The position numbers and the translations under genes were made by a program. This document shows, piece after piece, positions 8,640 through 19,504 of a stretch of 40,148 nucleotides of DNA. Within the stretch, counting starts at the first letter, position 1; every line of letters begins with the position of its first letter. Source of the DNA: an uncultured Bacteroidales bacterium (lineage in GTDB: Bacteria; Bacteroidota; Bacteroidia; Bacteroidales; Paludibacteraceae); the NCBI GenBank assembly GCA_902771935.1, contig CACXYM010000015.1, positions 1 through 40,148 on the forward strand, read 5' to 3'. Below the pieces are notes generated by a model. The model saw only the letters and a program-made list of their open reading frames with translations, ran no database searches and had not been told where the DNA came from.

Positions 8640-10745
8640 GTGGAATTAGCTCATCAAGATATAGGATATTGTAAGGGTGTCGGTAACAAGCGTGCCGACA
8701 CTCTTCGTAAAGAGTTGAACATTGTCACTGCGCTCGACATGGTGACAACAGTGCTTCCATATAAGTACACAGACCGTAGTAAGTTCTACAAGATACATGA
8801 GATTGTCGATGAAGATACGGCTGTGCAGATTATAGGTGAAGTGACAGAGTGGCACATGGTGGGTATCGGTAAGGGTCAACGGTTAAGTGCTACTTTTACG
8901 GACGGACAGCATATGATTGAGTTAGTTTGGTTTAGAGGAGTCCAGTTCGTCAAATTAGAGAAAGGTGTTCAATACCTTCTTTTCGGCAAGCCGACTCGCT
9001 ACAACCACCAATATAATTTCGTCCACCCGGAATTAACTCCTATGTCTAAGGTCAAGCCACAGATGTTACAAGGTCTTGAGCCTGACTACAACACAACTGA
9101 TGGCATGAAGCGGATAGGTCTAAACTCCAAAGGGATACGCAACATTATGGCCTCGCTTATGCCGGATGTGCAACACGGAGTGGCTGAAACTATTGGTCAA
9201 GACATACTGGACAAGTACCACTTAATGGGAAGAAGGGATGCTATCCTAAATGTGCATTTCCCGCCCAATACCGCTGTTATGCAGAAGGCCCGCGAACGAA
9301 TGAAGTTCGAGGAGTTGTTTTATATCCAGTTACATATTCTCCGTCAAATGAAGCGACGGGAGAATAACGAGGGATTTCTTATGCCAATTGTTGGTAAACA
9401 CTTCAATCGTTTTTATCACGAGCAACTTCCTTTTGAACTTACCAATGCTCAGAAGCGCGTTATTCGTGAGATTCAGGGTGATATGAAGTCCGGCAAACAG
9501 ATGAACCGTTTGCTCCAGGGAGATGTAGGTAGCGGTAAGACATTGGTAGCATTACTATGCGCACTATTAGCGGTAGATAACGGCTATCAAGCATGCATTA
9601 TGGCTCCTACGGAAATACTCGCTAATCAACATTACTCCACGTTGCATGAGATGTTGCAGCCTAAAGAAGGCGGAGAGCCGATTGCCCGCGTAGCATTACT
9701 CACGGGTTCAACAACGCAGAAACAGCGTACGCTCTTGCACGATTCTCTGCGTAACGGTTCACTTAATATATTAATAGGTACTCACGCGTTGATAGAGGAT
9801 GAGGTGCAGTTTGCGAATTTAGGTTTAGTGATTGTAGATGAGCAACACCGTTTTGGTGTGGCTCAACGTGCTAAACTATGGACTAAGAACATTCGTCCGC
9901 CTCACGTACTTGTTATGACGGCAACCCCTATTCCACGCACCTTAGCGATGACAGTATACGGTGACTTGAAGACAAGTATAATTGACGAGTTACCTCCCGG
10001 CCGCAAGCCTATTACGACGGTGCACTACTCTATTCAGCGTAAGGCCAGCGTCAATCAGTTTATCCGCAAACAGATTGATTTAGGGCGACAAGTATACGTG
10101 GTCTTCCCTTTGATTAAAGAGAACAAGGATCTGGAGTTGAAGGATTTGCAGAACGGTTATAATGAATTATGCGAGACCTTTCCAGACTATCGTATCTCGA
10201 TGGTTCACGGACAAATGAAGGCCAAAGACAAAGACGAACAAATGCGACGTTTTGCTAGTGGCGAAACGCAGATTCTTGTTGCTACAACCGTTATTGAGGT
10301 AGGTGTTAATGTTCCCAACGCAAGTGTGATGATTATTGAGAATGCTGAACGCTTCGGTTTAAGTCAATTACACCAATTGCGCGGTCGTGTCGGTCGCGGT
10401 GCAGACCAAAGTTATTGCGTGCTGATGACTAAGCTGGAACTGAGTAAGGATACTCGTCAGCGCATGGATATTATGGTAGCTACCAATGATGGTTTCCGCA
10501 TTGCAGAAGCAGACTTGCAGTTACGCGGTCCAGGCGATTTGGAAGGTACTCAGCAATCAGGATTACCATTTGATTTGCACATTGCGAGTCTAGTAACAGA
10601 TGGACAAATATTAGATATTGCACGCAGTGCAGCGAAAGAGATATTGGACAATGATCCTCTGTTAGAGGACCAATATAATCAAATGTACAAACGTCGTTTG
10701 GATGTGCTTCGTCAGACGACGACTTACTTCGGAGAGATATCCTAA
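8640..10745 (+). CDS. recG: ATP-dependent DNA helicase RecG
   Basis: RecG remodels stalled replication forks and Holliday junctions. The 701-aa protein has normal length and domain order: an N-terminal wedge/OB region (about residues 60-150), then two RecA-like motor domains with GDVGSGKT (motif I, about residue 295), DEQHRFG (motif II, about 400), MTATPIPRTLAMT (motif III), and RecG-specific VHGQM, IEVGVNVPNA and HQLRGRVGRG (motif VI). The start is GTG directly after the tonB stop; no ATG further in would keep the N-terminal helix intact. There is no promoter of its own, so it is probably read from the tonB promoter. It converges on the PqqD-like gene with a 4-base overlap. Confidence 0.96.
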   Translation: MELAHQDIGYCKGVGNKRADTLRKELNIVTALDMVTTVLPYKYTDRSKFYKIHEIVDEDTAVQIIGEVTEWHMVGIGKGQRLSATFTDGQHMIELVWFRGVQFVKLEKGVQYLLFGKPTRYNHQYNFVHPELTPMSKVKPQMLQGLEPDYNTTDGMKRIGLNSKGIRNIMASLMPDVQHGVAETIGQDILDKYHLMGRRDAILNVHFPPNTAVMQKARERMKFEELFYIQLHILRQMKRRENNEGFLMPIVGKHFNRFYHEQLPFELTNAQKRVIREIQGDMKSGKQMNRLLQGDVGSGKTLVALLCALLAVDNGYQACIMAPTEILANQHYSTLHEMLQPKEGGEPIARVALLTGSTTQKQRTLLHDSLRNGSLNILIGTHALIEDEVQFANLGLVIVDEQHRFGVAQRAKLWTKNIRPPHVLVMTATPIPRTLAMTVYGDLKTSIIDELPPGRKPITTVHYSIQRKASVNQFIRKQIDLGRQVYVVFPLIKENKDLELKDLQNGYNELCETFPDYRISMVHGQMKAKDKDEQMRRFASGETQILVATTVIEVGVNVPNASVMIIENAERFGLSQLHQLRGRVGRGADQSYCVLMTKLELSKDTRQRMDIMVATNDGFRIAEADLQLRGPGDLEGTQQSGLPFDLHIASLVTDGQILDIARSAAKEILDNDPLLEDQYNQMYKRRLDVLRQTTTYFGEIS

Positions 10746-11014
10746 ACCGCTATTCCTATTTCAATCCAGTCAGCGATAATAAGTTTGGCATCCTCAAGAG
10801 CGATGTCACGTGTAACATCGTATTCGTCGCAGAGCCAATCAGCCATCATATCGGCAGTAACATCACCTTTATGTTTCTCACATTGCTGCCAGAGGAATGC
10901 TGCTGTTTCGTTGAAGGTAATCATTTTGTCGAAGTTGACTTGATCAGCGCCTTCTCCGAGCAGCATCCACTCGTCACCAATTGGACGGAGTTTAAATCCT
11001 TTCTTAATTTTCAT
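10742..11014 (-). CDS. PqqD-family small protein (RiPP recognition element fold)
   Basis: A 90-aa protein with the winged-helix PqqD pattern. An N-terminal strand region (MKIKKGFKLRPIG) is followed by FNETAAFLW, and the C-terminal part has DEYDVTRDIALEDAKLIIAD, the most recognisable PqqD piece. PqqD-like domains bind leader peptides of ribosomally made, modified peptides, but free-standing members in Bacteroidales often have no known client. The start overlaps the stop of the peptidase gene (ATGA, 11011-11014), so the two are coupled. No radical-SAM enzyme, ABC exporter or obvious short precursor peptide is in the window. A role as peptide chaperone for the neighbouring peptidase is inference. 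Confidence 0.85.
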   Translation of the reverse strand: MKIKKGFKLRPIGDEWMLLGEGADQVNFDKMITFNETAAFLWQQCEKHKGDVTADMMADWLCDEYDVTRDIALEDAKLIIADWIEIGIAV

Positions 11015-11475
11015 AATGTGTTATTTTGAAGTTTTAGCAGTTTGCGATATATTTTGAGTAATATTCTTCTAATTGGTTTGAGATAGAACCAGATTCTTCC
11101 TCGCGTAAGGCATTTGGTCTGTCCATTGGGTTTGTATATTTGAACGACCGTGCCATAGATATCATTGGTAGTACATTGCTCCGTTCCTTGAAGATTACCA
11201 TCGCCTTGGAGCGTAATAAGCTTGTCATTGATAGCGATAATGCGGTGCAAAACATATTGAGGATTGGTAATTGGAGATTGGAGATTTGGGATTTGGGCAA
11301 GGACAATATCTCCCACTCGGAAGGTAGCGCATTTTCTTAGGACGACGGTATCCCGTTCGCCTTCTATAAAAGGGCGCATGCTGAAACCAGAAGGAGTAAA
11401 ACGGACATCCCTCCCTTGTTGGAGGAGGGCGCCCATTTCAGGGATCAATATGTCATTATCCACTTTGTGTGCCAC
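11011..11475 (-). CDS. S24/S26-type serine peptidase, probably soluble, Ser/His-type dyad
   Basis: The 154-aa protein has the S26/S24 pattern: SGFSMRPFI with Ser32 as the expected nucleophile, RVGDIVLA as the following strand, VLHRIIAI with His77-Arg78 where the general base is expected, and GDGN at about residues 91-94. A His in place of Lys is the arrangement of the SEC11-like (S26B) branch. There is no N-terminal membrane helix, so it should act in the cytoplasm or at the membrane surface, unlike signal peptidase; the C-terminal tail is strongly basic. Start is GTG directly after the stop of the 65-aa gene. An unusual segment PNLQSPITN (residues 63-71) is encoded by a simple repeat. Confidence 0.8.
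   Translation of the reverse strand: MAHKVDNDILIPEMGALLQQGRDVRFTPSGFSMRPFIEGERDTVVLRKCATFRVGDIVLAQIPNLQSPITNPQYVLHRIIAINDKLITLQGDGNLQGTEQCTTNDIYGTVVQIYKPNGQTKCLTRGRIWFYLKPIRRILLKIYRKLLKLQNNTL
11262..11309. repeat. Simple degenerate repeat inside the S24/S26 peptidase gene
   Basis: The plus strand reads as iterations of a GGAGATT/GGGATTT-like 7-mer. It is in frame with the peptidase and encodes the extra segment between the IVLA strand and the catalytic VLHR strand. Confidence 0.6.
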
Positions 11476-11673
11476 TTATTCTTGCGGTTTTTCTTTATCT
11501 TTATCGCGCAGGTCCTCACGTGCTTTCATTGAGCCTCTTACAACGATGATGAGCAATCCTGCAACAAGTACATAGTTCGCATATTCCTTCCACGGAGTGA
11601 AAGTGAGTATTGCTCCAGCAAGAAGGATGATCAGACCGATAATAAGTAATATCTGTGACTTTTTCTTAGGCAT
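11476..11673 (-). CDS. Small two-helix membrane protein of unknown function
   Basis: A 65-aa protein, MPKKKSQ then two hydrophobic helices (about residues 8-25 and 34-49) separated by a short FTPWKEYAN loop, and a charged tail rich in Arg, Asp, Lys and Glu. I do not recognise the family. The ATG at 11673 is chosen over a longer frame from 11730, because the longer form would overlap the upstream gene and begins with sequence that reads like its tail in another frame. It lies 4 bases after the upstream stop and directly before the peptidase start, so it is part of the same unit. It could be a membrane anchor or partner for the soluble peptidase, which is speculation. Confidence 0.65.
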   Translation of the reverse strand: MPKKKSQILLIIGLIILLAGAILTFTPWKEYANYVLVAGLLIIVVRGSMKAREDLRDKDKEKPQE

Positions 11674-11677
11674 ACGA

Positions 11678-12418
11678 TTATTTAGCTTGTTGTTTTCTAC
11701 GATGAATAAGTACGGCGCCGGCATAAGCAACTGCGGCGATGAGCAAAGCCCACAATCCGTCCCCTAACGGTACAGGATCTTTCATCGGTTCGAGAGGGTT
11801 ATCATCATCATCTTCACCGTTTAGGCGTCTAATTTTTCCAACATGAGATATTGCATCTGCGCTATTGTCAGCAAGTAATTGTTGCTCTGCGGCCAACGTA
11901 TTCTTAGCAGACAAGGAACGAGACGAAGTCCATACTGCAGTTGACATCACCATACTAGATGTAGAAGTGCTGAAAGGTACGGAGGAAGAAACATGTACTG
12001 TTGTTCCTGATGTTCCTGAACCAGAACTTATTCCTGCACCCAGATTACGCGCTTTTGCCGATGAAGTTGTATAAACTTTAATCGGTTGAGAGTTTGAAGT
12101 GTGATTGCCATATTGTGAAGCAGTAGGATTGACCGGTTCTACCTCATGATGGATAAGTCCGGACTGACGATAGTCAGTGTGATATGCGGCAACTATTCTA
12201 CCTGAAGCATGTTTGGAAGGTAAGGGAGCGACAAAGGCATCCACACGTATTACGCTACCCTCATATTGGTTCACTGCAGCTTGATCGGAGGCATCGCTTG
12301 GTTTCAACATATAAGTGGACAAAAGGATAAAGAGATATCCAATGCCAAGGATTATTCCTGCGAAGATAAACCAACGGCGTGTGGAACGTCTTTGCTCCGA
12401 TTTGATAATAGCCTTCAT
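11678..12418 (-). CDS. Membrane protein with N- and C-terminal helices and a Ser/Thr/Gly-rich middle, unknown function
   Basis: With the start at 12418 (MKAIIKSEQRRSTRRWF) the protein has 246 residues: a basic N-terminus, a membrane helix at about residues 16-37, a periplasmic region of about 170 residues with low-complexity Ser/Thr/Gly stretches (about 120-165), an acidic EDDDDN segment, then DPVPLGDGLWALL leading into a second helix and a basic tail HRRKQQ. The P-(L/V)-G-D/N-G plus helix plus basic tail ending is a pattern I associate with Bacteroidales proteins near large secreted proteins, but I cannot name a family. The gene lies 73 bases after the giant surface protein gene and 4 bases before the next, so it is probably co-transcribed with both. 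Confidence 0.65.
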   Translation of the reverse strand: MKAIIKSEQRRSTRRWFIFAGIILGIGYLFILLSTYMLKPSDASDQAAVNQYEGSVIRVDAFVAPLPSKHASGRIVAAYHTDYRQSGLIHHEVEPVNPTASQYGNHTSNSQPIKVYTTSSAKARNLGAGISSGSGTSGTTVHVSSSVPFSTSTSSMVMSTAVWTSSRSLSAKNTLAAEQQLLADNSADAISHVGKIRRLNGEDDDDNPLEPMKDPVPLGDGLWALLIAAVAYAGAVLIHRRKQQAK

Positions 12419-12491
12419 ATTATTTAAAATATCAATACGCATAATAATCAAAATTTAGAGAGTGATTAAACTTGTTCTTTATTTGTATTGA

Positions 12492-15400
12492 TTATTTTAC
12501 TATTTGTTCAATACGTCCGTGTATATCATAGATTACGCCATCTCGCGCAATGTGTAAATGTCCGTCCGGTGTAACAAACTTTATAACCTTGTTATTCCCT
12601 ATTGTTTGTTTGCCGAATGAAGTTGTTATACTTGGCTCTTTACGGATAGTGACGCTAACATAGAATCTATCTTTTATTGCTTCAGTAGAAGCTGTTGAAT
12701 TGAACTCATAGCTATTTTGAGTGATATCCGTATAGATATTTGACTGCGCGTCATATAATATCACAGACTCAACTCGACTCAAATCGTAAGCTTCGTTCAA
12801 TTTGAAGGAGTATTGCCCATCCATTAATGTATAGCAACTTAATGGTACAGCGTTTGTGCGTGCGGCTTCGGCTTCAGACAAAGCATTAAAGGCCATCTCG
12901 CCAGCCTCCGACATAGAGAAGCATACTGGTTTTGTGTATTCAGTAAACTTTGTTCCTTTCCATTTGTAAAGGTCTGCACCTACTTCATATACGCCCTGAG
13001 CATATTGGTTATGGATACATAAGCCCGTGTTATCTATTTCGTTTTTAGAATTCGACAATTGTATACCGACGAATACCGGAGCCTCCTCTTTCTCCTCATC
13101 ATCAGTATAACGTTGTTGAATCATTGTTTTACGACCGCTATTGTTAAACATAACGCTTTTTTCTTCGTTTTTAACAGCTCCCGCAATTTGCACGAAATAT
13201 GAGGTGAAAGGAGGTAATTCGGTAGCCGTTACCAATTCTTGAGAATATTCCGATTTACCACCATTTTGCGGGATAGTGACATAATACAGAGATGTAGTTT
13301 CCGGATCATAATCATAATAAGGTAATCCCTCCGAATCATAGAACACCTCTAGTTTACCTGTTTGAAGCGGAGTAGCGGCATTAAATCCGTTGTAATAGCT
13401 CAAATACGGATCGCCGACGAGGTTCCAACCTTTATTGTTTGGTTTCAGCTCAGCATAATCAGAGCCTGCGCCATAAGCTTTAACAGCGACGTTCTTTGGA
13501 CTTGTTTCATCATATCCGGCCATTGGGAAGCGGAGTGCTTTCCACTGACGTTTACTGCCATTCTTGCCTGTTACGGTTTTCTGGTCAGCGATTGCAACAA
13601 TATATCCCACACCTGGTAACAACTGCGGAGTTGTTGAAGGATCCAGATGTTTCCAGTTGCGTCCATCTGCTTGTGAAGGATTGTCTGCACGTGCTTCACC
13701 ATCATACCACTTAATCCAATAGTCGGTACGATAGACGCAAGAAGTATTATCTGTAAATGTAATCTCTGCCACATTCACAGGATAAGGAACGGTTATCCAG
13801 TGCCAGTCTTCATCAGAGATATACTTCTCGAAGTACACATTCGGTTGACCGCCATCACCGTTTACATCTGCAAGTTGCGTATTATTTGGTATATAAGCTG
13901 ATGACACTTCATCTTGTCTAGCACGGAGGGTGAGGGAAGCCGCATTTAATTTCTTATTTGTTAGGTCTAATTTAGAACCTTCATAAATCGTAATATGTCC
14001 TAACGAATCAACACCTGCGGTAGCAGAAGATAGTGTTTTGCCATCACGTACAATGACATCACATTCCTTGCACACCTTATTTCCGTGCTTGGTGAAGATA
14101 ACATCATTTGTATTAGTATTCTTTTCATAGACGATAATAGGTACTGTGTAGATATTTTCAGCGGCAGGTTTCTTATCACCAGAATTTGCAAAGACTTGTA
14201 CCTTAAGCTTAGAGCATGACATTTTATACAATGTATCTACCGGAATACGGTACGTTCCATCATCGTTGATGCCGACCGTATCTAGTCGTGTAGAGTCAAC
14301 TTTCAACTCGAAGGCTTTATAGTAATCCGTGTAGTTGTAACTACCTACCCATTCAAAACCGGCACAGGAAGCTGCCACACCATGGTCATCATGTCCTTCT
14401 GCATCAACGTTAGGAATTTGCTCCCCGAACCACTCTCCTTCAATACCATCATGATCACCAAGAGTTACAAAGTCAGAAGTATTCAGGTCAACGGCATTGT
14501 TCGCACCTTGATTGGTTGAATTATATCCCGAGAAGACTATATTTTTTCGTATTAGAAGACAACGGTTTGTAGATAGAGGATAGTCTTTATTACCCAAAGT
14601 ATCAGTACCATAATTTGTTCCCCAACCACCTGGCGAATCATTCCACGACATAGATTTTTTAGCAGATCCATTTTTTCCACTCGCATCACCAGCGCCAATT
14701 AGGTCAATTATTCTGCTGTCTGCAATACGATACAAAGCAATTGCATCATCGCCATTAAAAGCCAGATTATTTTTAGTTGACCATTCTACACGATAATAAT
14801 TTGCAAAACCGGATTTAGGGCTCTCCTTAGCACAATTTAATATACTTACATCACCAGCATAATCAGGGCGTTGTTGAGAATAAATTATAAGTTCCTTACC
14901 CGGCGCCAACTGCATGGGAAGTTTATCAGTCGGTCCTGACTTCACTATAAGTTGATTGAAATTTTCTTTTTTGGACCAGTCAGCATATGTGGCGTCTCCT
15001 GTTGTTGCCCACAATTGATAACCGGATAAGTCTACAGTATCAGGAGTTCCGTTAAAGATACCCAACAATTTTACGTTATAGGAAGCCTCAAAGTACTTTG
15101 AGAAGAATATTTCGTCTGCAATTTTACCACTACCTTCATTTCCGTGTTGTACTTCGTCATACAACATAATGACAGGTGTTCCGCTGATATTAACAGCAAC
15201 ATCCACTTGCTGCGGATGCCACGTCATAATTTCCACATTAGGGTTCTTAGTCATAAATTCGCCAATTGCCGAAGGACATCCAGGAGCATCAACACCTGTT
15301 TCAGCAGCATACACTCGGTAATAATATTGTTTTGATTCCGTCAAGCCGGTAACCACATGTGGAGATTTGGTTGCAGTAATATCGCTTCCCACCTGAGTTG

Positions 15401-18400
15401 TACAAGTTTCATCAGAATATAGACGGATGATGAAATTATTGCAAGTGAATCCATCCATAGTCCACGAAATGGTAGCAGTTGTTGAAGATGGATATGGTGT
15501 TCCCAAATTAACAACATAATCACATTGTGTTGTTGTCACTTGATATTCTACACCCGGGTTAGGAGCACAAAGGTCTGCATCATCGACAGAAGTATCTGTT
15601 CCACGGATGAGAATCGTATTTTGCACGCCACGTGTTAGCCCTGATACAGGCACACGGACTTGTTTGCTTCCAGACGGATTAACGAACTCTATCTCGCTCA
15701 ATTGCAGCGTTTCCCATGAAGCGGCGTCGTTAACCTTGTATTGGTATTGTTTAGCATAAGGGATGGAATCTAACAAGATTTTGACACTTTCCGATTTAAT
15801 TGATGCGGCTCCCATATTGACTGGTTGAGCAAAATAGTAACAACGTTCGGTATAAGGGAGAATACGGAATTCCTTATTTCCCGTAGCATATAGACCAATT
15901 TGATTAGATGTATTCATGCATAAACTACGGTCGTTGGCGTTATTGTTAGATTTGATAAAATAAGTCTCATTATCATTTGTCAACAGAATCCATTCATAAG
16001 GTTGTTTGGCCGTAGATACATTGACACCATTATATATTTGGTTTCCTGATTTTGCACCATATAAGCACTTTCCTTCATCTCCGACGAACCGAACTGTCCA
16101 AGGCACTGAATCGTAACGAGAATGGGAAGCTCCCGTAGCGGGTGTTGTGCAGGCAGTAGATAGGGAGTAGTGTGTATTTATAGCTGTTCTGTCTGCGCTT
16201 GCAGGATCTGAATCACTATCCACATCCGTCGGGATACCAGTATATGTGCTGGCTTCCGGCATATTAGCCGGAACTGCGCGCCAAGTGTCCGAAGCGTCTT
16301 TCGCCACAATAACAAAGGATTCAGGTAGTGAGCGACCATGAACGGTAATTGTTGTGCTTGCCAAATCGCGGTCATCTTTTAGCGTAATGGTCGCCGTTTC
16401 ATCAGCTACATTTGCTGAATTCGGAGTATATTTGATAGCCAACTTTGTAGTAATCTTACCATCCGTAATGGTGTTACTCTTCAGCGTAGTAGTAAACTTG
16501 ATATTATCAGAAGTCGCATAAAGAGTACTTGCACCTGTCAGCATAGTACCTTTGACATCAATAGAGTCAACGGCTTGGATAGTTAAACCATTTGCTGAAG
16601 TTATATAAGGTTCTCCTTCTGCTTTAATAGTTGGTCCACAAGAAGGTTGTTGGGTATAAGTAGTTGCGTATTTCTCCAACAATATCCAGTTTTGAGTCGC
16701 AGAGGCGTTCCTATCATATAACTGCGCCATACCATTATATAATTCAAAATCTAAAGAACTTGTGTATGCAATTTGCATTGTTCCTGACACAGTTGCAGTA
16801 GATGTCCGTATGTTCCACATGTCAACCTCATCAGACAAAGTGACTAGCGCATTTTTCGCAACCGAAGCGGCAGATACGTATTGGGATCCATTGTATAGTG
16901 CATGAGGATAATCGTCATATCCTGTCAGTTTCACTGTCCATAATTCATCTAAGGGTATTGACGTTAACACCGTTGATGTTGTTATAGTTTCGGTATAAGC
17001 TTCTGCTGTTCCACCTGTTTTGAACTTTAACTTGGGATTATTACCATATATGGCGATATGTGCACCTTCTACAAGTAAAGAGGGATCATCAATAGGAGAA
17101 TATGATTTTGTTTCTTTGTCTTCAAAACTATAAACTGCATAATAGGTGGTAGCTTCTGTTAGCGTTTGTTCACCCTTTACGATTCCCGTTGGTGCAGTTG
17201 CTGTTCCATCTGTATAGTTTGATGTTACCCAGCCGAGGAACGTATAATCCGGACAAGAGGATGTTCCGAAAGGTAATGTATAGACCTCGCCTGCAACGCG
17301 ATTAGTTACATCAGTACTTGTACCATTATCAACCAAAGTGATGGTAAAGGATTGTGGAACGGTGACAGTACAATAGCCAGTTGCGGAAGTACTACCCTGT
17401 GTGCCAGTACAACTAATAGTACAAGTACCAGAACCATTATAAGTTACGGTTGCCGAGGCATCATTACCTGAGACGGTAGCCACAGAAGGATCAGAAGTTC
17501 CCCAAGTCCAGGAAGCTGGAGTGAACAGATTTGCGGTAGCTATTACGTTTGCAGTTCCTGTATTTGGTCGTTCTGCTGTCAAGGAATTAGGAGTGATAGA
17601 TACTGATGGTCCGCAGGAGATTGTGTATTCGGAATATGAAACACCGCCTCCCCAGAAAATAATAATTGTATCCAAATATAGTGCCCCACTTGCCGAACGA
17701 ATTCCGATATATTCATACTCGTCGTCAATAGTTAGTTCCGTAGAAGTTCCTTCCACACAAGTTCCTAACAAAGTGCCTTGTTTAGATGAATTGTACAAAT
17801 CAGCAGCACTTTCGTATGCGCTATTGCTTCCATAAATATTGGTTGTTCTTTCAGCCGAAGTATTACTATTCCAAACCACCTCAATCTTCGTAGCCTTACC
17901 ACCAGAAGTCGTAGTAACGATACCGCTATTATTGTTATTCGAGCGCAACTGAATAGCGTTATTCCCCCCCGCTGTCATTCCCGCATATTTTGCATCTGAA
18001 TGATGAGATTTATTACTCCAATCCACATAAGAGGTTCCAGTAACACCTATCATATCGTATGTCAAAGTGTCACTTACACTCGTTCCTGCACCAGATTCAG
18101 CTTTTGCGAAGACGGCGTAGTACGTTGTACCGCCAATAGGAATAGTTTTTCCACTGAAGCTTGTGAATAAATCATCTGGAGCATCGGACGGGTCGGCATA
18201 TGTACCATCGGCAGTCCATCCTACAAAGACTTTAGAGCCATCACAGATACTCGAAGCGGGAGTTCCAGGATTTGTAAGAGCCGTTCCCGCCACATCTGTT
18301 TGTGCAGAGCCGAATTGTGAGCCATTAGCCATCCAAGTTACGGTGTAAGTTGGAGCAGCACTAACAGTAATGGATTGTGTAGTAGACTTACCTCCGTAAG

Positions 18401-19097
18401 TAATGGTGATAGAAGTATTACTCGTTGTTAGAGGTGTAGAGGTTGAAGGCGAGAAAGAAAAATCGCTTTCATGTCCACCATAGGTATAAGTATCCGGATC
18501 TCCAGTATTATAGTTACGTGTAATAACTAATCCTGCAGGGTCAAAGGTTTCGCCTTCAAAATAAGTTACTTTCGTTGGTGCCGTTTGCACAGCAATTGAC
18601 TCCAAGGTTTTGGTGCTGCCGCCGGAATAGGTGACATCTATTGCACTAATTCGCAAGTGTCCTGATGTTCCATCCTGCGTAAAAACGATAGAAGCGGCAT
18701 CACCTGTCCAATTAGGAGTACTCCATGTTCCTTCATCTACAGATATGCTATTATCCGTTCGAGTATACGAAATAGTTATAGCAGAAATATTACCAACGGT
18801 CGATGTGATTGTTAAAGTTCCTCCTCCATACCACCTTATAGCGGAACCATTAGTGTAGTATTGTGTGGCAGTCCCCCCAGATCGTTTATTAAAAGTTGCC
18901 GTTATACCATCGACTATAGTAATAGGAGTCTCATCTACCACTGTATTAGAAGAATATTTTGCACTAAAAGTGATTGAGGCATCTGCTGACCAGAGGGAGG
19001 TGGTGAGAGATAAGGAGATAAATAGGAGAAAGGTTTTGTGAAGGGATGAGTTGATAAAAGACTTAAGACCTTCGAGGATAGAAACTTGTTTATTCAT
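12492..19097 (-). CDS. Giant secreted modular surface protein (Ig-like, FN3-like and lamin-tail domains, C-terminal sorting-like tail)
   Basis: A 2201-aa exported protein. ATG at 19097 is preferred; it opens a signal peptide ending near SLTTSLWSADA. Modules by eye: beta-sandwich (40-160), Big_3-like Ig domain with the LESIAVQ start (162-246), InlB-like repeat ending in FVGWTADG (249-329), second sandwich (335-480), Big_2-like Ig domain (496-579), InlB-like repeat (582-659), FN3-like domain (1192-1286), lamin-tail domain with ADEIFFSKYFEA and NLAFNGDDAIALY (1319-1532), then a beta-rich region with DWHWITVPYPV. The last 40 residues (VTPDGHLHIARDGVIYDIHGR) resemble the short C-terminal domain of T9SS cargo. 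It is first in a five-gene operon. Binding target unknown. Confidence 0.85.
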   Translation of the reverse strand: MNKQVSILEGLKSFINSSLHKTFLLFISLSLTTSLWSADASITFSAKYSSNTVVDETPITIVDGITATFNKRSGGTATQYYTNGSAIRWYGGGTLTITSTVGNISAITISYTRTDNSISVDEGTWSTPNWTGDAASIVFTQDGTSGHLRISAIDVTYSGGSTKTLESIAVQTAPTKVTYFEGETFDPAGLVITRNYNTGDPDTYTYGGHESDFSFSPSTSTPLTTSNTSITITYGGKSTTQSITVSAAPTYTVTWMANGSQFGSAQTDVAGTALTNPGTPASSICDGSKVFVGWTADGTYADPSDAPDDLFTSFSGKTIPIGGTTYYAVFAKAESGAGTSVSDTLTYDMIGVTGTSYVDWSNKSHHSDAKYAGMTAGGNNAIQLRSNNNNSGIVTTTSGGKATKIEVVWNSNTSAERTTNIYGSNSAYESAADLYNSSKQGTLLGTCVEGTSTELTIDDEYEYIGIRSASGALYLDTIIIFWGGGVSYSEYTISCGPSVSITPNSLTAERPNTGTANVIATANLFTPASWTWGTSDPSVATVSGNDASATVTYNGSGTCTISCTGTQGSTSATGYCTVTVPQSFTITLVDNGTSTDVTNRVAGEVYTLPFGTSSCPDYTFLGWVTSNYTDGTATAPTGIVKGEQTLTEATTYYAVYSFEDKETKSYSPIDDPSLLVEGAHIAIYGNNPKLKFKTGGTAEAYTETITTSTVLTSIPLDELWTVKLTGYDDYPHALYNGSQYVSAASVAKNALVTLSDEVDMWNIRTSTATVSGTMQIAYTSSLDFELYNGMAQLYDRNASATQNWILLEKYATTYTQQPSCGPTIKAEGEPYITSANGLTIQAVDSIDVKGTMLTGASTLYATSDNIKFTTTLKSNTITDGKITTKLAIKYTPNSANVADETATITLKDDRDLASTTITVHGRSLPESFVIVAKDASDTWRAVPANMPEASTYTGIPTDVDSDSDPASADRTAINTHYSLSTACTTPATGASHSRYDSVPWTVRFVGDEGKCLYGAKSGNQIYNGVNVSTAKQPYEWILLTNDNETYFIKSNNNANDRSLCMNTSNQIGLYATGNKEFRILPYTERCYYFAQPVNMGAASIKSESVKILLDSIPYAKQYQYKVNDAASWETLQLSEIEFVNPSGSKQVRVPVSGLTRGVQNTILIRGTDTSVDDADLCAPNPGVEYQVTTTQCDYVVNLGTPYPSSTTATISWTMDGFTCNNFIIRLYSDETCTTQVGSDITATKSPHVVTGLTESKQYYYRVYAAETGVDAPGCPSAIGEFMTKNPNVEIMTWHPQQVDVAVNISGTPVIMLYDEVQHGNEGSGKIADEIFFSKYFEASYNVKLLGIFNGTPDTVDLSGYQLWATTGDATYADWSKKENFNQLIVKSGPTDKLPMQLAPGKELIIYSQQRPDYAGDVSILNCAKESPKSGFANYYRVEWSTKNNLAFNGDDAIALYRIADSRIIDLIGAGDASGKNGSAKKSMSWNDSPGGWGTNYGTDTLGNKDYPLSTNRCLLIRKNIVFSGYNSTNQGANNAVDLNTSDFVTLGDHDGIEGEWFGEQIPNVDAEGHDDHGVAASCAGFEWVGSYNYTDYYKAFELKVDSTRLDTVGINDDGTYRIPVDTLYKMSCSKLKVQVFANSGDKKPAAENIYTVPIIVYEKNTNTNDVIFTKHGNKVCKECDVIVRDGKTLSSATAGVDSLGHITIYEGSKLDLTNKKLNAASLTLRARQDEVSSAYIPNNTQLADVNGDGGQPNVYFEKYISDEDWHWITVPYPVNVAEITFTDNTSCVYRTDYWIKWYDGEARADNPSQADGRNWKHLDPSTTPQLLPGVGYIVAIADQKTVTGKNGSKRQWKALRFPMAGYDETSPKNVAVKAYGAGSDYAELKPNNKGWNLVGDPYLSYYNGFNAATPLQTGKLEVFYDSEGLPYYDYDPETTSLYYVTIPQNGGKSEYSQELVTATELPPFTSYFVQIAGAVKNEEKSVMFNNSGRKTMIQQRYTDDEEKEEAPVFVGIQLSNSKNEIDNTGLCIHNQYAQGVYEVGADLYKWKGTKFTEYTKPVCFSMSEAGEMAFNALSEAEAARTNAVPLSCYTLMDGQYSFKLNEAYDLSRVESVILYDAQSNIYTDITQNSYEFNSTASTEAIKDRFYVSVTIRKEPSITTSFGKQTIGNNKVIKFVTPDGHLHIARDGVIYDIHGRIEQIVK

Positions 19098-19157: not shown

Positions 19158-19189
19158 CAAAGGTACATATTTTTTGGCAAATACGCAAA
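19158..19189 (-). promoter_or_regulatory. Bacteroidota-type promoter of the giant surface protein operon
   Basis: On the minus strand, TTTG (19186-19189), 20 nt, TACCTTTG (19158-19165). Transcription should start near 19150, about 55 bases before the ATG at 19097. It is the only recognisable promoter for the five genes down to 10742. Confidence 0.85.
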
Positions 19190-19379: not shown

Positions 19380-19408
19380 TGCTATGGATGCATCTGGACG
19401 AGTTAGGA

Positions 19409-19504
19409 GAGGTAGTAGTTAAGGGAGGTAGTAGTTACGGGAGGTAGTAGTTACGGATGGTAGTAGTTACAGGAGGTAGTAGTTACGGGAGGTAGTAGTT
19501 ACGG
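19409..19504. repeat. 16-bp tandem repeat, six copies, overlapping the end of the GHL10 gene
   Basis: The unit GAGGTAGTAGTTACGG is present six times in direct tandem, with single-base changes in the first copy and two or more in the fourth. The copy at 19489-19504 encodes the last residues NYYLP of the GHL10 gene, whose stop falls in the neighbouring copy. There are no spacers, so this is not a CRISPR array. Confidence 0.92.

Follow-up and report, generated by a model that had tools for sequence, protein, structure and literature searches.

A conserved peptidase–PqqD gene pair of Bacteroidales, probably half of a RiPP-like system serving surface proteins

The B1 proteins of lasso-peptide biosynthesis bind a YxxP motif, and some lasso peptides, for example paeninodin and pseudomycoidin, are phosphorylated. 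The bsf lasso cluster of Bradymonas comprises A, B1 (PqqD), a B2 protease, a C cyclase, a D exporter, a K kinase and an N nucleotidyltransferase; B1 assists phosphorylation and leader removal alike, and the leader shows a conserved YxxPxL motif (PMC10368454). In the RRE-Finder work, the discrete lasso model for recognition elements (RREs) of ribosomally synthesized and post-translationally modified peptides (RiPPs) scored highest for almost 8,000 proteins, and about 4,000 of these occur together with both a cyclase and a leader peptidase (PMC7470986). Here we analyze a gene pair, encoding a soluble S24/S26-type serine peptidase and a PqqD-like protein, in an uncultured bacterium of the Bacteroidales family Paludibacteraceae (assembly GCA_902771935.1, contig CACXYM010000015.1); the window is the whole stretch of 40,148 nucleotides from this contig. 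The pair is probably the leader-binding (PqqD) and leader-cleaving (S24/S26-type peptidase) half of a RiPP-like system that serves surface proteins, together with a kinase, a nucleotidyltransferase and YxxP substrates. No description of this gene set was found in the literature searched.

The genome of the window (95% complete) yielded no match at E<=0.001 to the cyclase family PF00733 or to the transglutaminase-like B2 family PF13471. With neither cyclase nor B2 detected by Pfam, a standard lasso cluster is ruled out, and a lasso peptide made by the known route is not to be expected.

The PqqD-like protein exceeds the cut-off of PF05402 by a wide margin (46.5 bits vs 23.4), and none of the NCBIfam lasso PqqD models matched it. 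The top six PDB matches of its structural model (predicted local distance difference test score, pLDDT, 90.9) are all chains of the lasso B1 proteins TbiB1 and TfuB1, crystallised with leader peptides, and the family profile matches TfuB1 with E 3.3e-7. Judging from fold and profile, the protein can be classified as a discrete RRE of the lasso B1 type. A preliminary description of the window had proposed that the genes may be devoted to processing or peptide maturation in connection with a surface protein, with the logic of lasso B1 and B2 proteins (an RRE plus a protease), and had named the lack of a leader-binding groove as an outcome that would count against it; the leader-bound B1 matches agree with the proposal, and the fold, judged only as a whole, gave no such outcome.

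The peptidase falls under every curated family cut-off (Pfam S24, E 0.21; TIGR02228, E 3e-4). Across the alignment Ser32, His77 and GDGN are conserved, with the serine in SMRPFIEG and the histidine in VLHR, and a Foldseek search with the model (pLDDT 91.6) recovered LexA/UmuD, SipA and signal peptidases (best E 1.1e-3). Its predicted fold and its motif of a serine plus a catalytic base thus point to the S24/S26 type. No membrane helix was seen, in accord with the earlier suggestion that the enzyme has no membrane anchor; the C-terminal helix (residues 133-153) is conserved and, by eye, basic and amphipathic. Among five relatives scanned from other families, L329, L331 (both fused) and L334 are over the S24 cut-off, and L336 and L071 are under it. 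One UmuD/LexA-like protein of 147 aa (L135, G069:C140:4556) starts with MKKIYSYPNI, that is, with a YxxP start on an S24-type protein, perhaps by chance.

We searched the genome of the window (G000), 60 genomes of the same genus (61 genus genomes in all) and 40 genomes of the order; in addition, one scan of the GTDB collection gave 141 related stretches, the best 80 of which are the named loci considered below. The titles of the related stretches refer to Bacteroidales or Paludibacteraceae bacteria, Candidatus Colicola and Candidatus Limimorpha, and the hosts given are ruminants and horses. Peptidase and PqqD occur together in all 80 loci, on the same strand and within 200 bp in 74, at 243-1005 bp in 5 and on opposite strands in 1. 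Within the genus, the peptidase is present in 43 and PqqD in 44 of the 61 genomes, and in each of the 43 peptidase-positive genomes a PqqD gene lies on the same contig within 1.5 kb of the peptidase. The other neighbors vary over the 80 loci: a secreted protein of ~183 aa is found in 36, the kinase in 26, and the 65-aa and 257-aa membrane proteins of the window in 7. The latter count shows that the four small genes of the window do not form one unit, and it does not bear out, as a general rule, the earlier suggestion that the membrane proteins act as substrate or anchor; the peptidase–PqqD pair is the core, and the two membrane proteins are incidental.

What does recur is the order of a large surface protein, one or more small genes, the peptidase and PqqD, and this order is more than chance. 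In 32 of the 80 loci, the region of 400 bp upstream of the small gene contains the end of a same-strand open reading frame (ORF) of at least 350 aa; these are all seven loci with the 257-aa gene (621-2341 aa) and 25 of the 36 with the ~183-aa gene; accordingly, a surface-protein operon ending in the pair recurs, and its small membrane proteins are replaceable. Our own regular expression for a C-terminal tail, K-x-(D/N)G-x-(L/I)-(Y/F)-I ... (Y/F)-(D/N)-x-x-G, fits the large upstream ORF in 19/25 loci of the 183-aa type and 0/7 of the 257-aa type, the latter seven ending GxYxVRV...VY. The ~183-aa protein itself (L042:12901-13455 and its kin), which lies upstream of the peptidase, often has a C-terminal Cys-x-Cys; the one member scanned did not reach the cut-off of any family.

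In some genomes the pair adjoins an HprK-like kinase and a PF14907 nucleotidyltransferase, which are present in 43 and (over the cut-off) 41 of the 61 genus genomes, respectively. The name of the kinase rests on weak, below-cut-off matches of its relatives to HprK models; the kinase in the genome of the window has no Hpr_kinase_C match and only weak PEPCK_ATP and P-loop matches. All four genes are absent in 16/61 genus genomes, one of which, G041, has a sub-cut-off match to the nucleotidyltransferase family. Mapped on a RecG tree that covers 45 of the genomes (31 with and 14 without the system), the distribution of the system takes at least 6 changes, 5 of them forced by strong branches. The joint loss of dispersed genes on several occasions is good evidence that they belong to one system. 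The nucleotidyltransferase (L094-L096, L103, L108, L114) often precedes a run of genes that, by eye, are of the glycosyltransferase, ATP-grasp, DegT and small-multidrug types.

Candidate substrates are encoded by small ORFs such as the one starting with MKKLYTSPEIE, directly before the kinase in G079, and the one starting with MKKFIAPEV, before a second PqqD in G007. Within the genus, the DNA pattern for MKKxYxxPxI has matches in 16 PqqD-positive genomes and in one negative genome (G028), where a stop follows immediately; the matches in G038 and G053 are longer unrelated ORFs, and several others are fused lipoproteins. A hidden Markov model (HMM) of the leader, built from 12 rows, has matches at E<=0.1 in 33/44 PqqD-positive vs 0/17 PqqD-negative genus genomes (Fisher p 4e-8), and in 23/34 vs 0/17 when the 10 genus genomes that contributed rows are left out. 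A looser DNA pattern, some matches of which are not short ORFs, matched 148 times over the 44 positive genomes and 6 times over the 17 negative ones, with 9 and 4 for the reversed control, so that the negative genomes are at the control level. In independent pairs on the tree, the peptides follow the system in 4.4 of 5 pairs on average.

The 50 peptides of 38-59 aa share a simple anatomy. A leader of ~22 residues, MKKxYxxPx[TIV]E..., contains YxxP in 49/50, with a T, I or V at the second position after it in 47/50 (Y and P were search criteria). The junction is marked by a hydrophobic pair followed by C (24/50), A (18/50) and S (19/50), and the core of ~20-30 residues is rich in Gly, Pro and Ser, with zero Cys among the 1153 residues counted after the C position. 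As sequences go, this leader-core layout and the co-occurrence with the system are consistent with RiPP precursors. By lasso numbering, cleavage would fall directly before the C; the habit of signal peptidases would put it after the S. Codon comparison of near-identical peptide genes showed 8 silent and 0 replacing differences for L222/L223, two copies in G038, 5 and 2 for L221/L222, and 6 and 2 for L221/L223; for the more distant L235/L241 the counts were 5 silent and 18 replacing. The genome of the window encodes the peptides MKKNVYNRPVIDVIQVSLSHFILAGSSGNINLGGGGGSGIIPD and MKKQYIAPQVQEHKFETTSRIMVGSFGPDYHPSLSPRQIP and, in addition, a YxxP leader fused to a lipoprotein that is fimbrillin-like in look (L149/L210, G000:C2:161712). 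Its YxxP peptides include one of 43 aa on G000:C6 near 126,880 and one of 40 aa at G000:C12:13,814. A leader of this kind, MKKIYxQPRIETVATTPQQMLCASGG, forms the N-end of lipoprotein-like ORFs of ~360-375 aa in L149/L210, L141, L146, L147, L150, L151, L156 and L158.

The short peptides occupy a characteristic position. Once L208 (no motif), L210 (lipoprotein-fused leader) and L211 (a longer unrelated protein) were dropped, 34 of 39 peptides were found within 200 bp behind, and on the same strand as, a tail protein of at least 150 aa; the background, from 104 other genus loci, is 35 of 1343 ORFs of at least 100 aa. Of the five peptides without a qualifying gene, L217 follows a tail on an ORF shortened to 76 aa, L231 is at the start of a contig, L236 follows a variant tail that escapes the regular expression, and L224 and L234 have no tail before them. 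Among 11 further cases near the peptidase, 7 have a YxxP ORF 6.6-7.3 kb downstream of it on the same strand.

In other families of the order, the components come together in clusters. The order in G079 is peptide, kinase, peptidase, PqqD, nucleotidyltransferase, ATP-binding cassette (ABC) exporter. In G086, a protein with a type IX secretion system (T9SS) tail (Por_Secre_tail over cut-off) is followed 2 bp on by PqqD, then by a YxxP peptide, kinase, peptidase and ABC exporter, with the nucleotidyltransferase convergent. A surface protein with a sub-threshold tail match precedes PqqD and a YxxP peptide in G087, and in G089 PqqD is followed by a YxxP ORF, the kinase, peptidase and a confirmed ABC protein lying ~30 kb off. 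In G072 and G098 the ABC exporter itself carries the S24 domain at its N-end, a fusion that suggests coupling of cleavage to export. The preliminary description caught part of the picture: the kinase and nucleotidyltransferase lie outside the window, candidate precursors are encoded elsewhere in the same genome, and exporters appear in other families. Next to system genes in the genus, one ABC family was considered as an exporter and rejected, as it adjoins them in 5 genomes only. We also set aside, as another system, PqqD clusters in eight other genomes of the order (L339-L344, L346, L347), in which PqqD is accompanied by two proteins, one of ~350 aa (IAVTGLNxIDSPGPG) and one of ~450 aa that has [YF]E[RK]P close to the N-terminus; most of these clusters also encode a membrane protein of ~730 aa. 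Here a full-length enzyme may carry the RRE motif seen on the YxxP peptides.

Several observations weigh against a RiPP-like system of this composition. The independent-pairs test, with 5 pairs and none opposed, reaches p 0.0625 at best. Among the PqqD-positive genomes, 11 of 44 gave no HMM match at E<=0.1, and G060, the closest relative, is one of these; the matches in G049 are only leaders fused to lipoproteins, and the HMM has no discriminating power beyond the genus (best E 0.55 in G086 and 2.7 in G087). A YxxP scan of the window found no YxxP ORF, and none was found in Candidatus Limimorpha equi (L296) with nucleotidyltransferase, kinase, peptidase, PqqD and ABC, or in G068 with PqqD, ABC, kinase and peptidase; a YxxP ORF beside PqqD is present in 3 of the 20 loci taken from the order around further PqqD, kinase or nucleotidyltransferase genes. 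The gene set itself has exceptions, all in draft genomes: G031 has kinase and nucleotidyltransferase without the pair, G053 lacks the peptidase (which is also missing from its 3.8-kb contig), and among PqqD-positive genomes the kinase is missing in G006 and G036 and the nucleotidyltransferase in G005, G010, G012 and G060. No exporter recurs beside system genes in the genus, where a genome-wide exporter search was not made. As to the tail proteins, system-negative genomes have them too, 5 in 224 kb vs 54 in 1689 kb of system-positive loci that were partly chosen near the system; tail proteins hence do not need the system, which comes on top of them. Of the 124 tail ORFs in the retrieved loci, only 12 precede a YxxP ORF, at least 1 of these spuriously, compared with 60 of 1360 other long frames under the same loose rule; in negative genomes the corresponding figures are 1/5 (spurious by sequence) and 3/130.

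From what the computation yielded directly, namely pairing, co-occurrence, co-loss, leader-core anatomy, position behind surface-protein genes, clusters in other families and peptidase-exporter fusion, we infer every chemical step and the purpose of the system. Short precursors would be encoded singly, for the most part following a gene for a surface protein that bears a T9SS-like tail. PqqD would bind YxxP, the kinase would phosphorylate the core, and the nucleotidyltransferase would elaborate the phosphate by nucleotidyl or sugar transfer. The peptidase may then cut at or near the [ILM]-C-A-S junction and an ABC exporter release the product, which would act with or on the partner surface protein as a ligand, an anchor or a maturation factor. 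A bolder version, tentative and in our estimate rather less probable than not, is a genome-wide RiPP service in which one dispersed gene set, exporter included, matures many different peptides and every peptide is encoded together with a T9SS-type surface protein of its own. If so, the surface protein would gain a modified peptide as partner, ligand or anchor, and the peptides would make up a new RiPP class without a cyclase, linking RiPP chemistry to T9SS-type surface display.

Other explanations have to be weighed against the RiPP-like system. The pair might process the products of its own operon, that is, the 2201-aa, 257-aa and 65-aa proteins, as the near-overlapping genes on one strand with a single promoter-like site would suggest. 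Moreover, a protein of 621-2341 aa is directly upstream in all loci with the 257-aa gene, and 36 further loci have the secreted ~183-aa protein upstream instead. We nevertheless hold this explanation to be unlikely: the membrane proteins accompany the pair in few loci, the kinase is a neighbor in 26/80, neither the 257-aa nor the 65-aa protein has a YxxP leader, and a soluble, presumably cytosolic peptidase would not be expected to meet a Sec-exported protein after export.

Alternatively, the genes could be the relict of a lasso tailoring set, in which kinase, nucleotidyltransferase and RRE outlived the cyclase, a peptidase was recruited, and the present function is, for example, glycan modification. 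The missing cyclase and B2 would fit, as would the location of the nucleotidyltransferase before glycosyltransferase or sugar-like genes (by eye) in about ten genomes; yet catalytic residues and pairing are retained, four other families have clusters with YxxP ORFs, and the genomes that lost the set are also without the peptides, which makes a relict improbable. The YxxP ORFs might, finally, be small proteins that have nothing to do with the system and were lost along with it owing to a common lineage or habitat. They are short and partly selected by pattern, independent losses are few, and most tail genes are without such an ORF. However, at least 5 changes are strongly supported, the peptides go the same way in most of the independent pairs and are never opposed to the system, and YxxP ORFs adjoin system genes in G079, G086, G087 and G089, so that we give this explanation very little credence.

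Table 1. Coordinates of the window operon and of associated genes.
Feature	Coordinates	Strand	Basis or remark
PqqD-like protein (RRE, lasso B1-like), 90 aa	10742..11014	-	PF05402, model, profile
S24/S26-type serine peptidase, soluble, 154 aa, GTG start	11011..11475	-	conserved motifs and fold
65-aa two-helix membrane protein, lineage-specific passenger	11476..11673	-	7/80 loci
257-aa protein, helix at both ends, lineage-specific passenger	11678..12451	-	7/80 loci; start codon uncertain
2201-aa secreted modular surface protein	12492..19097	-	ORF; 2213 aa if upstream ATG used
C-terminal tail IKFVTPDGHLHIARDGVIYDIHGRIEQIVK of 2201-aa protein	12492..12599	-	tail regular expression; type found before genus YxxP peptides
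Promoter-like TTTG-N20-TACCTTTG, upstream of five genes	19158..19189	-	sequence reading
HprK-like kinase, genome of the window	G000:C11:30040-30741		outside window
PF14907 nucleotidyltransferase, genome of the window	G000:C7:173134-173745		outside window
S24/S26-ABC exporter fusions	L329:1716-3956; L331:1176-3593		domain scan

Re-reading of the ORFs confirmed the operon as previously outlined (Table 1): five genes on the minus strand, gaps of 4, 0 and -4 among the last four, and peptidase and PqqD in last place, with the promoter-like element upstream at 19189-19158. Promoter-like here refers to the Bacteroides-type consensus. Between it and the stop of a 440-aa gene, at ~19400-19490 on the minus strand, there is a short direct repeat, AACTACTACCTCCCGT, with variants. 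In the 2201-aa protein, Pfam detects Big_3 barely over cut-off, and LTD, fn3 and Big_2 under it. Por_Secre_tail gave no Pfam match on this protein, the likeness of its tail being a judgment by eye only. Neither the 65-aa nor the 257-aa protein reaches the cut-off of any Pfam or NCBIfam family; the C-terminus of the latter (PLGDGLW-helix-RRK) resembles a protein-sorting tail, with all Pfam and NCBIfam matches below cut-off. The OrgC-like and LPXTG-like matches of the 2201-aa and 65-aa proteins are below cut-off and were taken as chance.

Likely substrates and partners can now be proposed for an unannotated protease-PqqD pair that occurs in 141 stretches of a single genome collection and is present in other Bacteroidales families too. 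The RiPP-like system may explain some of the lasso-type RREs that lack a cyclase or leader peptidase, and would amount to a natural-product-style system serving surface proteins in gut bacteria. The short precursors and the four enzymes make a ready test set for work in vitro.

Compared with known systems, the closest likeness is to the clusters for phosphorylated lasso peptides, which share the B1-type RRE, an HprK-like kinase, a predicted nucleotidyltransferase, an ABC exporter (here in other families) and a YxxPx(L/I/T/V) leader. Unlike in those clusters, the peptidase here is of the S24/S26 type, PF00733 and PF13471 are missing from the genome of the window, the genes are dispersed, and the precursors are spread out and lie in the main behind surface-protein genes. 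ABC exporters with a C39-type peptidase domain couple leader cleavage with export, and the exporters of G072 and G098 likewise have a leader peptidase at the N-end; this peptidase, however, is S24/S26-like, and the leader has YxxP rather than a double-Gly motif. The window peptidase has the fold, the serine in an SMxP motif and the LHR and GDGN motifs in common with S26 signal peptidases and SipA, but differs from them in being soluble, without a visible membrane anchor, and coupled to an RRE. Points of likeness to T9SS cargo are the Por_Secre_tail match over cut-off on the protein preceding PqqD in G086 and the similar-looking tails before the genus peptides, although Por_Secre_tail does not match the 2201-aa protein of the window and the genus tails are defined by our own expression. 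What would be new, in sum, is lasso-like tailoring without a cyclase and with an S24/S26-type leader peptidase, and if the pairing with surface proteins is functional, the system would be more than a variant of the known ones.

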